The position numbers were made by a program, and so were the translations under genes. From Acinetobacter sp. WCHAc010034 (lineage in GTDB: Bacteria; Pseudomonadota; Gammaproteobacteria; Pseudomonadales; Moraxellaceae), in assembly GCF_001696615.3 (NCBI RefSeq), contig NZ_CP032270.1, positions 1-14,502 of the forward strand: a DNA stretch of 14,502 nt, given 5' to 3'. The notes under the pieces were generated by a model, which was given only the letters and a program-made list of their open reading frames with translations, searched no databases and was not told the origin of the DNA. This document shows positions 6,616 through 11,228 of the stretch, piece after piece (within the stretch, counting starts at the first letter, position 1; every line of letters begins with the position of its first letter).

Positions 6616-6656
6616 TTAGGAAATCTTAATCGAAGTGAAATAGAGGAGATATCGCG

Positions 6657-7517
6657 ATGCATACGCGGAAGGCAATAACGGAGGCGCTTCAAAAACTCGG
6701 AGTCCAAACCGGTGACCTCTTGATGGTGCATGCCTCACTTAAAGCGATTGGTCCGGTCGAAGGAGGAGCGGAGACGGTCGTTGCCGCGTTACGCTCCGCG
6801 GTTGGGCCGACTGGCACTGTGATGGGATACGCGTCGTGGGACCGATCACCCTACGAGGAGACTCTGAATGGCGCTCGGCTGGATGACGAAGCCCGCCGTA
6901 CCTGGCTGCCGTTCGATCCCGCAACAGCCGGGACTTACCGTGGGTTCGGCCTGCTGAATCAATTTCTGGTTCAAGCCCCCGGCGCGCGGCGCAGCGCGCA
7001 CCCCGATGCATCGATGGTCGCGGTTGGTCCGCTGGCTGAAACGCTGACGGAGCCTCACGAACTCGGTCACGCCTTGGGGGAAGGATCGCCCGTCGAGCGG
7101 TTCGTTCGCCTTGGCGGGAAGGCCCTGCTGTTGGGTGCGCCGCTAAACTCCGTTACCGCATTGCACTACGCCGAGGCGGTTGCCGATATCCCCAACAAAC
7201 GGTGGGTGACGTATGAGATGCCGATGCTTGGAAGAGACGGTGAAGTCGCCTGGAAAACGGCATCGGATTACGATTCAAACGGCATTCTCGATTGCTTTGC
7301 TATCGAAGGAAAGCCGGATGCGGTTGAAACTATAGCAAATGCTTACGTGAAGCTCGGTCGCCATCGAGAAGGTGTCGTGGGCTTTGCTCAGTGCTACCTG
7401 TTCGACGCGCAGGACATCGTGACGTTCGGCGTCACCTATCTTGAGAAGCATTTCGGAACCACTCCGATCGTGCCTCCGCACGAGGCCGTCGAGCGCTCTT
7501 GCGAGCCTTCAGGTTAG
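6657..7517 (+). CDS. aac(3)-IId: Aminoglycoside 3-N-acetyltransferase, AAC(3)-II family
   Basis: This 286-residue acetyl-CoA-dependent enzyme acetylates the 3-amino group of gentamicin, tobramycin and related drugs. Family hallmarks are the N-terminal GVQTGDLLMVHASLKAIG, the central HPDASMVAVG, the LLLGAPLNSVTALHYAE loop and the C-terminal GTTPIVPPHEA. Length is normal for AAC(3)-II. From memory the substitutions fit the IId/IIe variants best; the allele needs a database comparison. GAGGAG lies 8 bp before the ATG. The gene is far richer in G+C than the plasmid backbone, so it comes from another organism. A tmrB-like gene follows after 12 bp, the known companion of aac(3)-II. Confidence 0.95.
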   Translation: MHTRKAITEALQKLGVQTGDLLMVHASLKAIGPVEGGAETVVAALRSAVGPTGTVMGYASWDRSPYEETLNGARLDDEARRTWLPFDPATAGTYRGFGLLNQFLVQAPGARRSAHPDASMVAVGPLAETLTEPHELGHALGEGSPVERFVRLGGKALLLGAPLNSVTALHYAEAVADIPNKRWVTYEMPMLGRDGEVAWKTASDYDSNGILDCFAIEGKPDAVETIANAYVKLGRHREGVVGFAQCYLFDAQDIVTFGVTYLEKHFGTTPIVPPHEAVERSCEPSG

Positions 7518-7529
7518 AGGCCGTCGACA

Positions 7530-8072
7530 ATGATAATCTGGATCAACGGACCTTTCGGCGCCGGAAAGACGACGCTCGCTAAGCGGCTGCGCGATCGGCG
7601 TTCCAAATCGCTGATCTTTGACCCCGAGGAAATCGGGTTCGTGGTGAAAGAAACGGTCCCCATGCCAGCGAGCGGAGACTATCAGGATCTCCCCTTGTGG
7701 AGGGGACTTACGATCGCGGCGGTCAGGGAGATTCGAAGGAATTACTCGCAGGACATCATCATCCCAATGACGCTCGTGCACCCGGACTATCTGACTGAGA
7801 TACTCGACGGGGTAAGGCGGATCGACGATCAGCTGCTGCACATCTTTCTGACGCTCAACGAGGACCTATTGCGTCACCGGATCGCGAACCAGACCATGCA
7901 TCCTGACCCGAATCGAAATGCGGAGATTCGAGAGTGGCGATTAGCGAATGTCGCCCGATGCTTGGCCGCAAGGGAACGGCTTCCATGCACAACCCGTGTT
8001 CTCGATAGTGGTGCACACACCAGCGATGAACTCGCAGCGATGGTGCTCGACGGAATCGATGGGCGCACCTGA
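7530..8072 (+). CDS. tmrB: TmrB-like P-loop ATPase (tunicamycin-resistance type)
   Basis: This 180-residue nucleotide-binding protein has a P-loop near its start (GPFGAGKT, residues 7-14) and a small kinase-like fold with a lid region (LLRHRIANQ..., about 110-120). It matches the TmrB-like ATPase usually found right after aac(3)-II. TmrB of Bacillus confers tunicamycin resistance; whether this copy does anything for the plasmid is unknown. It is co-directional with aac(3)-II with a 12-bp gap, so probably one transcript. Base composition matches aac(3)-II. Confidence 0.88.
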   Translation: MIIWINGPFGAGKTTLAKRLRDRRSKSLIFDPEEIGFVVKETVPMPASGDYQDLPLWRGLTIAAVREIRRNYSQDIIIPMTLVHPDYLTEILDGVRRIDDQLLHIFLTLNEDLLRHRIANQTMHPDPNRNAEIREWRLANVARCLAARERLPCTTRVLDSGAHTSDELAAMVLDGIDGRT

Positions 8073-8165
8073 TCGCCTTCGACGCCTGCGCAAAGCGTAG
8101 CGCGAGGGTGGCGGGCTCACGACCAAACGCCCAGAGGTCGATCATCGCAGGGATGTTTGGCTTTG

Positions 8166-8464
8166 TGGTGCGGACGACGGGACTCGAACCCGTACTCTCA
8201 CAGAGAAGCAGATTTTCGTACCACCTCGACTTTCGCCGCCGTCTGATGACGTTCGTGGTCTGGACTGTCCCTTCGCCATTGCCCGAAGGCTTTAGGCGCC
8301 GCCCGTCCAGTCTCTACACCTTCCCCCGAAGGGGCTTGGCTCGGGATTGGCTTAGGGTATTGCCCGTTAGCGTTCCCCGACTTTGAGCGGTTCTACTCCG
8401 CGGATTTCCCCGCGGGCACTCCAATTTTAAAGTCTGCTGCGTCTACCGATTTCGCCACGTCCGC
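8166..8464 (-). tRNA. tRNA-Leu(UAA), interrupted by a group I intron
   Basis: The two exons on the minus strand assemble into an 86-nt class II tRNA. The 5' exon is 8464-8430 (35 nt) and the 3' exon 8216-8166 (51 nt). The 7-bp acceptor stem GCGGACG/CGTCCGC is perfect, with discriminator A and an encoded CCA. The D arm carries the Leu-type sequence GGTAGACGC. The anticodon stem GCAGA/TCTGC holds the loop CTTAAAA, giving anticodon UAA. The long variable arm pairs CTCT with AGAG, and the T arm is ACGGG-TTCGAGT-CCCGT. The intron sits between U34 and A35, the same site as in cyanobacterial and plastid tRNA-Leu(UAA). The gene is intact but lies on GC-rich foreign DNA, convergent with the tmrB-like gene. 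Confidence 0.93.
8217..8429 (-). ncRNA. Group I intron (IC3-like) in tRNA-Leu(UAA)
   Basis: The 213-nt intron carries group I features in order on the minus strand. The 5' exon end ACTT can pair with an internal guide GGAGT (P1), giving the U-G wobble at the 5' splice site. A P/Q-like segment CCAATCCCGAGCCAAGC follows. The R element GTAGAGACTGGACGGGC (within 8302-8318) can pair with the S element AAGGGACAGTCC (8262-8273) to form P7, and the last intron base is G. No homing endonuclease is encoded, and the size fits tRNA-Leu introns. Splicing is expected to be autocatalytic with a guanosine cofactor; this is inferred from the motifs. Confidence 0.88.
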
Positions 8465-8465
8465 C

Positions 8466-8750
8466 TTTTTTCGCCGTTCCTAGCGCTCGTGCGATGCACC
8501 TATGTTGCACCTAGCGCCGAATCGTTCTTCGTCATCCTGAAAAACCACGTCTCCTAAAGCCTTGCATAGCTTATCTTTTCTCCACCACGAACTTTTTTGT
8601 GGGATGGTAGAAAAAAAGACTTTTTAAGTCCGCTGGCTTGCCAGGCCTTGTTAGCTTGTACGGTCATGGTTATCGGGTAAAGAATATTGACGGCATCGCT
8701 GGTGTCGGTGGCTGAAAAGCCGGCTCCCATCAGGGCAATAGCCATTTCAG
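8466..8750. other. Gap with no confident gene, left of the transposase remnant
   Basis: This stretch passes from GC-rich DNA behind the tRNA 5' end (with two copies each of AGGTGCA and GCGCTAGG on the minus strand) to more AT-rich sequence. The only long frame, minus strand 8554-8769, encodes 71 residues with no motif that I recognise and no good ribosome-binding site. I see no insertion-sequence ends. It probably holds joined fragments from at least two sources. Confidence 0.5.
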
Positions 8751-11228
8751 ATGCAGGCGTACAGGGCAATGGTCAACAGCTACAGCCTGTCTGACGATTC
8801 CGGCGTCATGGCTGCGGCGGCTATCACGCATTTTTTGTTCGGTCAGGCGGTGTTTTCGTACCTCTCCTTAAGCCAGCTTCGAGCCGGTGCAAAAAGCGTT
8901 ATGGTGACAGAGCTAAAAAAAGAACTGACGGTGTATCATCAGTTACAGCCTTATACAAGACAGATTGATAATGCTGTTAAGGGCTTAGCCTTATCGTCTA
9001 AAAACCAACAACACTTCGGTGAAATGGTGGATTATTATGGCAGTAAACTAAAACGCTTTAAGCGTCCACAGCAACACCTATGGTTGCTGTGTTTTCTGAC
9101 TCAACGCATACGGCAAAGCCTAGAGCGATTGGCTGATGGGTTTATTCATCATATCCGTAAACAACAAGAAGCTGCGCATGCGTTTGCCCAACAGGCAGTG
9201 TTTGACTCATGGAGGTCAGCTGCAGACAATGTCACCAAAGCCGCAGAATTACTGCATCTGTTTGTTGATGACAGTATCGACGATAATCAACCATTTGCAA
9301 CGGTTAGGCAACAAGCATTAAGTGTAATGAATAACCAAGATATAGAAACGCTATGCCTGTACTTAAAAAAGCAAAAACGCACGGTAGAAGAATATCAATG
9401 GCAATATTATGATGATCAAAACGGGTTAATTGAGCAGTTATTAAGGCCCGTGTTTCTATGTCTTGAATGCCAAGCAGGTAAAGGCTCAGAAGCATTAGTG
9501 ACCCAGCTCAAAACCACAAAAACAGAACTATTAGCAGGTAATACATTGCAAACAATGGATAGTACACTTATCCAACAAAAACATCGTCCATGGTTAATTA
9601 ACAAGGATGTTGTTCATCCACAGCGATACGAATGGTTGCTTTACCGTCAACTGGCTTCTCGGCTTAATGGTCGAATTTACTTATCAAACGTCACTAAATA
9701 TCGTGCGCTAGAAGACGACTTAATTGCATCGTCAATACAGCCTGATCTATTGGCATCATCAACATTGGAAAAGCTAAAGCAGCCGATTCAGAAGCTACTG
9801 CAAGTAAAACAAATACGCTTAACAACATCCCTAGAAGATGTTGCTCGTCACATTGATAATGGTGATAACCGCAATGTGATCATGAAGAGCCGAAGTGGCA
9901 CACGATGGCGACTGCCAGTTAAAGGCTCCCAATCACTTGTCAACAACCCTTTCTTTAAACAAATGATCCCCGTCAGTATTGCTGATGTGTTGCGTTATGT
10001 TGAACAAGAAACCAACTTTATGCAATGCTTCGCACACGTGCTGCCAATACAAAAACAAGTAGGCGCCAATCAGGATGATTTATTGGCTATTCTAATTGCG
10101 AATGCGACACATCGCGGCGTATATGGGATGGCACAAATATCTGATCGCAGTTATGAGCATCTAAGCACTATACAAGCTAATTATATTAGGCCTGAAACCT
10201 TGCAAGAGGCTAGTGATATCATCAATAACGCAGTAGCGGCACTCCCTATTTTCCGCCACTATCACATCCAAGAAGACGTCCTGCACGCCAGTACCGATGG
10301 GCAAAAATTTGAAACTCACCTTGAGACTTTTAAAACTCGCTACTCCTCGAAATACTTCGGCACCAACAAAGGTATTACGGCCATGACGTTAGTTGCCAAT
10401 CATAGTGCGTTAAATGCCCGTATCATAGGATCTAATGAGCATGAGTCCCATTATATTTACGACTTACTACAATCTAATACTAGTGATCTTAAGCCAGATG
10501 TCCTCTCAACCGACACCCATGGTGTTAATCATGTTAATTATGCCTTATTGGATTTATGCGGTTATAGTTTTGCGCCTAGGTATGCTCAGTTCACCAGTGT
10601 GATCAATGACCTATTTAACGTAACTGAAAGCGACGACGGAAACACGCATCTGGCGCTGAAAAAGCCGATAAAAATGAATGTGATTGAAGAAGGCTGGCAG
10701 GATATTCAGCGTATTGTGTTATCCCTTCAAGAAAAACGCACAACACAGGCATTGCTAGTACGCAAATTATCTGGTTATCCATCTAGACACCCTATATTAC
10801 AAGCATTAACGGAATATAATAGGCTCATCAAAGCCCAATATTTACTTGATTATATTGATGATGCAAGTCTGCGCCAATATGTTCAACGAGCACTGAACCG
10901 AGGCGAAGCCTGGCATTTCCTCAGGCGAGCTATTGCATCGGTCAATCGTGACCAGTTCCGTGGAAAAAACGAATCAGAAATAGTCGTCTGGAACGAGTGT
11001 GCCCGTTTGACGGCAAATGCTATTATCTACTTTAACTCGATGATCCTAAGTCATCTATTACTGCACTTTGAAGAAGTTGGTGACGAGGAAAAAGCAGCAA
11101 TAACTCGACAAGTATCACCCGTTGCATGGCAGAACATTAATCTGAGCGGCACTTATCAGTTCGCTAGTAACCGCAAACTACCTGATTTACAGGAAATAAC
11201 TAGGCCTATTGTTGAAAATGAAGTCTAA
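8751..11228 (+). pseudogene. tnpA: Tn3-family transposase, 5'-truncated
   Basis: The 825-residue open frame is a DDE transposase of the Tn3 family, which normally has about 950-1,000 residues. The catalytic triad is intact: Asp at about 516 (ASTDGQKF), Asp at about 588 (STDTHGVNH) and Glu at about 719 (LNRGEAWHF). The C-terminus (INLSGTYQFASNRKLPDLQEI) is complete. Roughly 150-190 N-terminal residues are missing. The first 45 or so residues do not look like a Tn3 transposase, so the family sequence probably begins near 8880-8900. The lost N-terminal part binds the terminal repeats, so the protein is unlikely to work. The terminal repeat follows at 11279-11316. Confidence 0.88.

Follow-up and report, generated by a model that had tools for sequence, protein, structure and literature searches.

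Disrupt-and-replace integration into host tRNA genes is described for actinobacteriophages with tRNA-dependent lysogeny (Guerrero-Bustamante and Hatfull 2024, PMC10865867), and prophages of S. meliloti insert into the middle of tRNA-Leu(UAG), inactivate the gene and carry a tRNA-Leu of the same kind (PMC11476347). Group I introns are described in the tRNA-Leu(UAA) of cyanobacteria and in alpha- and betaproteobacterial tRNAs (PMC4033280). Disrupt-and-replace integration and group I introns in tRNA-Leu(UAA) are thus each already known. Further intron cases are the tRNA-Arg(CCU) of Agrobacterium, the tRNA-Ile(CAU) of Azoarcus and a gammaproteobacterial tRNA-Leu(UAA).

The window analysed here (14,502 nt) makes up one entire 14.5-kb contig in the assembly of Acinetobacter sp. 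WCHAc010034 (NZ_CP032270.1), and resembles an Acinetobacter plasmid. It contains an intron-split tRNA-Leu(UAA) that is probably part of the left end of an alphaproteobacterial integrative element of conjugative type, cut off and now plasmid-borne with tmrB and aac(3)-II as cargo. Like the actinobacteriophages (PMC10865867), such elements combine a tyrosine integrase with arm-binding domain and a short core in a host tRNA gene; the host tRNA is not rebuilt, the element brings a tRNA of the same kind, and secondary sites would be used. Unlike them, the two elements scanned here carry conjugation genes in place of a phage genome, the targets are tRNA-Leu(UAA) and tRNA-Leu(CAA) in alphaproteobacteria, and the UAA replacement is split by its intron exactly in the core; the available text of PMC10865867 has the word 'intron' once, in a reference title. 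Mid-gene disruption of a tRNA-Leu with replacement, in an alphaproteobacterial host, is shared with the S. meliloti prophages, whereas those are prophages in tRNA-Leu(UAG) and the available text on them does not contain the word 'intron' (PMC11476347). Compared with the bacterial tRNA introns covered in the accessible part of PMC4033280, ours is likewise small, lies in the anticodon loop and has a P3/P7 core, a splice-site U-G and a final G, and differs in its 213 nt borne by a mobile element and resistance plasmids.

The resistance unit itself is the aacC2-tmrB module (PMC7096625, PMC11232968), for which aacC2-tmrB-orf192-orf228-orf1182-ISCfr1 is one published gene order (PMC7096625); the 192-bp frame of pCTX-M3 spans the proposed integrase core. 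In the available text of both papers the words 'tRNA' and 'intron' are absent from the unit descriptions, and no report of an intron with the aac(3) unit or on resistance plasmids was found in the open-licence literature. As far as our searches show, what is new is the combination of intron and disrupt-and-replace integration in conjugative-type elements, and its survival as a stump beside aac(3)-IId.

The intron-bearing tRNA-Leu(UAA) and its plasmid setting

The complete gene occupies 8464-8166 on the minus strand (299 bp). Exon 1 (8430..8464, 35 nt, last base U34) is conserved throughout the 37-sequence alignment described below, the intron (8217..8429, 213 nt) ends in G, and exon 2 (8166..8216, 51 nt including CCA) was delimited from the sequence and the folding of the joined exons. 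These coordinates and the strand agree with the initial annotation, as does its description of a class II tRNA-Leu: the joined exons form a cloverleaf with 7-bp acceptor stem, anticodon stem, variable arm, T stem and CCA, and the 213-nt insert lies between U34 and A35, with a U-G wobble at the 5' splice site and a final G. Against shuffled sequences this cloverleaf reached a z-score of only -1.9, with an equally good fold in 9 of 200 shuffles. ARAGORN called no tRNA over the window, and Rfam at gathering thresholds gave no match in the window, nor for the loci of four close relatives. The covariance-model search that had been proposed for a group I core returned, at an E-value threshold, a significant full-model match of RF00028 (Intron_gpI) to 8439-8247 (36.8 bits, E 6e-8), yet one under the Rfam gathering score of 50.

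Relatives were collected with a core pattern searched over one genome per species, which yielded at least 119 stretches. After removal of two duplicates, 38 passing loci gave 36 distinct relatives; one locus cut by a contig end (L099) was dropped. Two of the 36 (L087, L135) come from metagenome-assembled genomes (MAGs) named only Proteobacteria, the rest from alphaproteobacteria or genomes of Enterovirga's order. The alignment of the window with these 36 was scored over 83 pairs, tRNA stems included, in a modelled structure running from P1 to P9 with the P3/P7 pseudoknot. Standard pairs filled 97.6% of cells (89.7% in shuffles, and no more than 44.6% when partners were shifted by 1-3 columns), both sides had changed in 33 of the 83 pairs (shuffles, 20.3), and 218 cells were compensatory (shuffles, 57.9); none of 500 shuffles matched any of the five covariation measures, a statistic that ignores the kinship of the sequences. 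P3, P7 and P8 were paired in 100% of cells with compensatory changes present. For P7 (8263..8312, minus strand; GACUG 8312-8308 against CAGUC 8267-8263), A-U replaces G-C in 14 of 37 sequences and C-G replaces U-A in 2 of 37; for P8, A-U replaces G-C in 16 of 37. P1 (8418..8433, minus strand) pairs exon ACUU plus intron U with GGAGU, and its splice-site wobble U8430-G8421, like the intron-final G, is kept in 37 of 37. The P7 (R/S) motifs noted from the single sequence are pairs that covary, and the P1 U-G noted there is conserved. The insert is a group I intron in tRNA-Leu(UAA), predicted from its conserved fold to be self-splicing.

A promoter search of 8000-8800 found no sigma-70-type site. 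Only one frame of at least 60 aa overlaps the intron; it is antisense and runs across the tRNA. The intron contains no endonuclease gene, and at 213 nt it is too small for one, which rules against homing.

The window further encodes RepM, in line with the Acinetobacter-type plasmid claimed initially, MobQ, msr(E)-mph(E), a resolvase-family recombinase, a Tn3-family transposase frame and, next to the tRNA, the two cargo genes: aac(3)-IId (6657..7517, plus strand), the aac(3)-II neighbour named by the initial annotation, and a tmrB-like gene for an AAA-domain protein (7530..8072, plus strand). The Tn3-family frame (8751-11228) is without its N-terminal part (profile positions 187-953), and its start falls within the flank shared with pCTX-M3. 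The best NCBIfam match of the TmrB-like protein is to the Gar/GrdA gentamicin-resistance ATP-binding family, at 26.2 of 170 bits and thus far under the cut-off; given this match and an AAC(3) neighbour also in S. meliloti, the true role of the 'tunicamycin resistance' TmrB may involve aminoglycosides.

The stretch 6641-8864 (2,224 bp) has 100% identity to pCTX-M3, where the unit is flanked by IS26 and ISCfr1. A 351-bp piece with the tRNA matched 1,292 PLSDB records (1,257 of them over 80% or more of its length; identity at least 99% in 1,271). Among 5,426 complete E. coli genomes, 635 matched it, 624 of these over 80% or more. In the 10 records inspected out of 658 from E. coli, the tRNA and intron are unannotated; the plasmid table lists no RNA genes. 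Of the suggestion that the ribozyme spreads with the resistance genes, these counts bear out carriage as a passenger; spread by homing does not fit 213 nt that leave no room for an endonuclease.

Element ends at tRNA-Leu(UAA) and tRNA-Leu(CAA)

In five of the 36 distinct relatives (AGun1, Enterovirga, Phyllobacterium, Mesorhizobium BR1-1-16 and a Novosphingobium MAG), the intron-bearing tRNA follows the 5' half of another tRNA-Leu(UAA) gene, which breaks off in the anticodon loop at the core CTTAAAA. Between this half and the complete intron-bearing tRNA lie 155-177 nt with a TAGG(A/T)GC repeat pair. The window has the corresponding parts on the minus strand: direct repeats TAGGTGCA (8495..8514; 8513-8506 and 8502-8495), 31-49 nt upstream of the tRNA, which we propose as integrase arm sites from the similar pairs in the chromosomal elements, and CTTAAAA (8622..8628), 157-164 nt upstream, which by comparison of the element ends is the proposed integrase core and makes up the whole anticodon loop of the target tRNA. 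The repeat pair has the window's spacing in four of the five left ends; in the fifth its distance is 20 nt greater. Similar upstream DNA, but no half tRNA, was seen at a sixth locus, L231. No half lies upstream in 31 of the 36 relatives.

Three genomes showed both ends, which in one case lie on two contigs. The 3' half missing at the AGun1 left end starts at CTTAAAA 34.6 kb downstream and adjoins a tyrosine integrase with an arm-binding domain. Displaced tRNA-Leu(UAA) 3' halves adjoin orthologous integrases (66% identity each) in two more genomes: in Enterovirga, at a distance of about 58 kb from the left end, and in Phyllobacterium, where linkage of the ends is assumed because the 3' half and the left end are on different contigs. 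The ends share a core of 7 nt, CTTAAAA, the whole anticodon loop, and the host tRNA is split and not rebuilt. Right ends of the Mesorhizobium and Novosphingobium elements were not found in the 55 and 39 kb read, and integrase matches in these genomes reached only 25-32%. Two of the key genomes are MAGs.

Among the scanned proteins of the Enterovirga element are a TraG coupling protein, a TrbB/VirB11-type ATPase, TrbE/VirB4, TrbL and a DUF3363 protein as putative relaxase. The AGun1 element has a coupling protein, a VirB11-type ATPase and a VirB4-type protein, and also an ArdC-type protein, ArsA and chromate-transporter proteins. With conjugation genes in the scanned part of each, neither looks like a temperate phage; both look like integrative elements of conjugative type, which may be able to transfer.

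A tRNA-Leu(UAA) pattern allowing two mismatches found no intact intron-less gene in AGun1, Enterovirga or Phyllobacterium; besides tRNA-Leu(CAA) sites it matched only the half at the element end. It found the intact gene in two of three comparison genomes and missed it in the third, so that this absence is not proof. UUA codons are not known to have another usual reader besides tRNA-Leu(UAA); the intron gene should therefore have to work in the element genomes, and the replacement seems to be needed in these hosts.

The integrase family extends to a second target. Nine integrases of at least 64% identity, from AGun1, Phyllobacterium and seven of 397 sampled genomes of Enterovirga's order (Enterovirga included), divide into three beside halves of tRNA-Leu(UAA), five beside halves of tRNA-Leu(CAA), with core CTCAAAA, and one that was assigned to neither. 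In five genomes the CAA-type left end is followed about 195 nt downstream by a complete tRNA-Leu(CAA) without intron, in which one base of the loop is changed (TTCAAAA); three of the five (G457, G674, G751) have an orthologous integrase on the same contig. The CAA-type half of Enterovirga reads CTAAAAA. The contiguous core is thus absent from the replacement gene at five of five UAA ends, where the intron splits a loop otherwise unchanged, and at five of five CAA ends with arms, where the loop reads TTCAAAA. One Phyllobacterium locus (genome G777, contig C5, 284.6-285.0 kb; L291, L302) lacks arm repeats; its half tRNA-Leu(CAA) is followed 388 nt on by a complete gene for the same tRNA whose CTCAAAA loop is intact. 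This locus may be a relic, and its retained CTCAAAA weakens a strict rule of core loss.

Some IMG/VR contigs contain related sequences. On L309, at about 2470 of the minus strand, a group I intron interrupts an apparent tRNA-Leu(UAA) within a tRNA gene cluster. Nineteen contigs (L310-L328) encode integrases 60-68% identical to that of AGun1, of which those on L310 and L311 adjoin a CTTAAAATCC tRNA 3' half; these predicted proviruses or miscalled elements therefore use the same integration system.

Origin of the plasmid unit

At least 18 loci match the tRNA and intron near full length, at 77-95% identity. Among the matches listed, the closest at full length were Enterovirga aerilata (95.4%) and the Bradyrhizobiaceae MAG AGun1 (95.0%), followed by the Novosphingobium MAG (93.4%) and Phyllobacterium phragmitis (92.8%); others come from Rhodobacteraceae, Mesorhizobium, Camelimonas, Jiella and more. 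ARAGORN, run on trial splices of 80 of the at least 119 loci, gave tRNA-Leu(UAA) at 11, tRNA-Arg(CCU) at 34 and a tRNA with CAU anticodon at 17 loci, frequently along with other predictions. The nearest named alphaproteobacterial relatives of TmrB are in Sinorhizobium (81%), Paracoccus (70%) and Geminicoccus (65%), those of AAC(3)-IId in Ensifer (86%), Brucella anthropi (85%), Bradyrhizobium (77%) and Geminicoccus (74%). AAC(3) alone cannot fix the donor, because a Pseudomonas aeruginosa record (87%) and Burkholderia cenocepacia (77%) are also among its relatives. On pSymA of S. meliloti Rm41, aac(3) and tmrB are adjacent in the same order (85% and 83%), with no tRNA or left end within 6 kb. 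The initial suggestion that the intron could mark a donor lineage can be given a name: by tRNA and intron this lineage is Alphaproteobacteria, to which TmrB and AAC(3) also point, less strictly.

The full row of half tRNA, intron tRNA, tmrB and aac(3) was not found in any genome searched. For TmrB, 13 sampled genomes gave no donor and 397 genomes one match of 37%; for AAC(3), 384 sampled genomes gave four matches, the best of 72%, and none was confirmed on viral contigs. The samples of 369, 397 and 384 genomes are even draws, not whole groups. A gammaproteobacterial donor was considered and rejected: in the genomes sampled there, the best full-length relative reached 69% over 270 nt, shorter stretches at most 78%, and the exons differ. 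RF00028 matched at E <= 1e-5 in 50 of 369 gammaproteobacterial genomes, several times in tRNA-Leu(UAA) by alignment.

The plasmid and the Phyllobacterium left end share 87.5-87.7% identity along 470 bp. This match starts at GGA|CTTAAAA, and homology of the plasmid to the element ends begins 3 nt outside the core. Beyond the core lies unrelated DNA; the flank 8632..8864 is common to pCTX-M3, whose wider flank has a pseudomonad-like DUF3883 gene (protein at most 88% identical to Stutzerimonas and Pseudomonas proteins). For the plasmid copy, no match to the AGun1 integrase was found (G000); only the left end of the element is left there. No uninterrupted flank site was seen in seven genomes of one genus, an absence that shows nothing. 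Capture of a circle, with the left flank being the element's own right end, was rejected, as there was no DNA match to the right ends compared. In annotated phages the flank had no matches, and the left-end region had three weak ones. In the simplest reading, the element would have inserted at a non-tRNA secondary site in a pseudomonad and then been captured beside ISCfr1 and IS26; for tRNA-dependent phages, secondary sites sharing only CTT are described (PMC10865867).

Integration model, alternatives and meaning

In the proposed model, a tyrosine integrase would insert the element into the CTTAAAA anticodon loop of the host tRNA-Leu(UAA), splitting the gene without rebuilding it. The replacement tRNA-Leu(UAA), just inside the left end past the arm-like repeats, would carry its intron directly after the third base of the core, and its transcript would splice itself and so restore the tRNA. 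Tentatively, we consider the intron an immunity device, with the core split in DNA and the tRNA restored in RNA, and the aac(3)-IId unit a stump of such an element. The split copy could then withstand its own integrase, or a second element, while the host tRNA-Leu(UAA) is destroyed, and the CAA sister elements may answer the same problem by one base change.

About equally likely, with nearly even prospects, is that the element is real and the intron a neutral passenger, the replacement tRNA having come from a lineage that already bore it. With no upstream half tRNA in 31 of the 36 relatives, many look like ordinary resident genes, and the arm-less Phyllobacterium locus, a replacement-like gene with intact loop, also suits a passenger; loss of the contiguous core in both target classes argues against it. 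A more radical alternative dispenses with the element end and supposes that the tRNA simply adjoined tmrB and aac(3) in the donor chromosome and was mobilised by an IS or transposon. The bracketing of the pCTX-M3 unit by IS26 and ISCfr1, the many seemingly resident alphaproteobacterial copies and the occurrence of tmrB with aac(3) elsewhere without the tRNA are all consistent with it. We nevertheless regard it as unlikely, since the 157 nt upstream, repeats and core included, correspond to the element ends, the similarity breaks off 3 nt beyond the core, and 12 other full-length loci of the at least 18 have no such upstream DNA.

That a homing or self-spreading intron invaded a plasmid tRNA is hardly credible: related introns do occur in tRNA-Arg(CCU) and CAU-anticodon genes, yet here intron and exons move together, the exons resemble the alphaproteobacterial gene at 95%, and the 213 nt are devoid of an endonuclease gene. 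Whether or not the intron serves the element, the plasmid copy could by now be an inactive relic, untranscribed or unspliced in its present hosts. We lean away from this while taking it seriously: it would accord with the missing sigma-70-type promoter and the Rfam score under the cut-off, whereas the core and splice-site pairs are intact and the sequence is at least 99% identical in most of the plasmid records, an identity for which recent spread alone could account.

If the locus is such a left end, aac(3)-IId, a common gentamicin-resistance gene, would have a traceable source in an alphaproteobacterial integrative element, and an apparent self-splicing ribozyme would reside on over a thousand plasmids, in a unit whose descriptions, in the available text of PMC7096625 and PMC11232968, do not include it. 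tRNA-dependent integration would extend from phages to conjugative-type elements, and a possible function of tRNA introns, to hide an integration site in DNA and not in RNA, would become testable.
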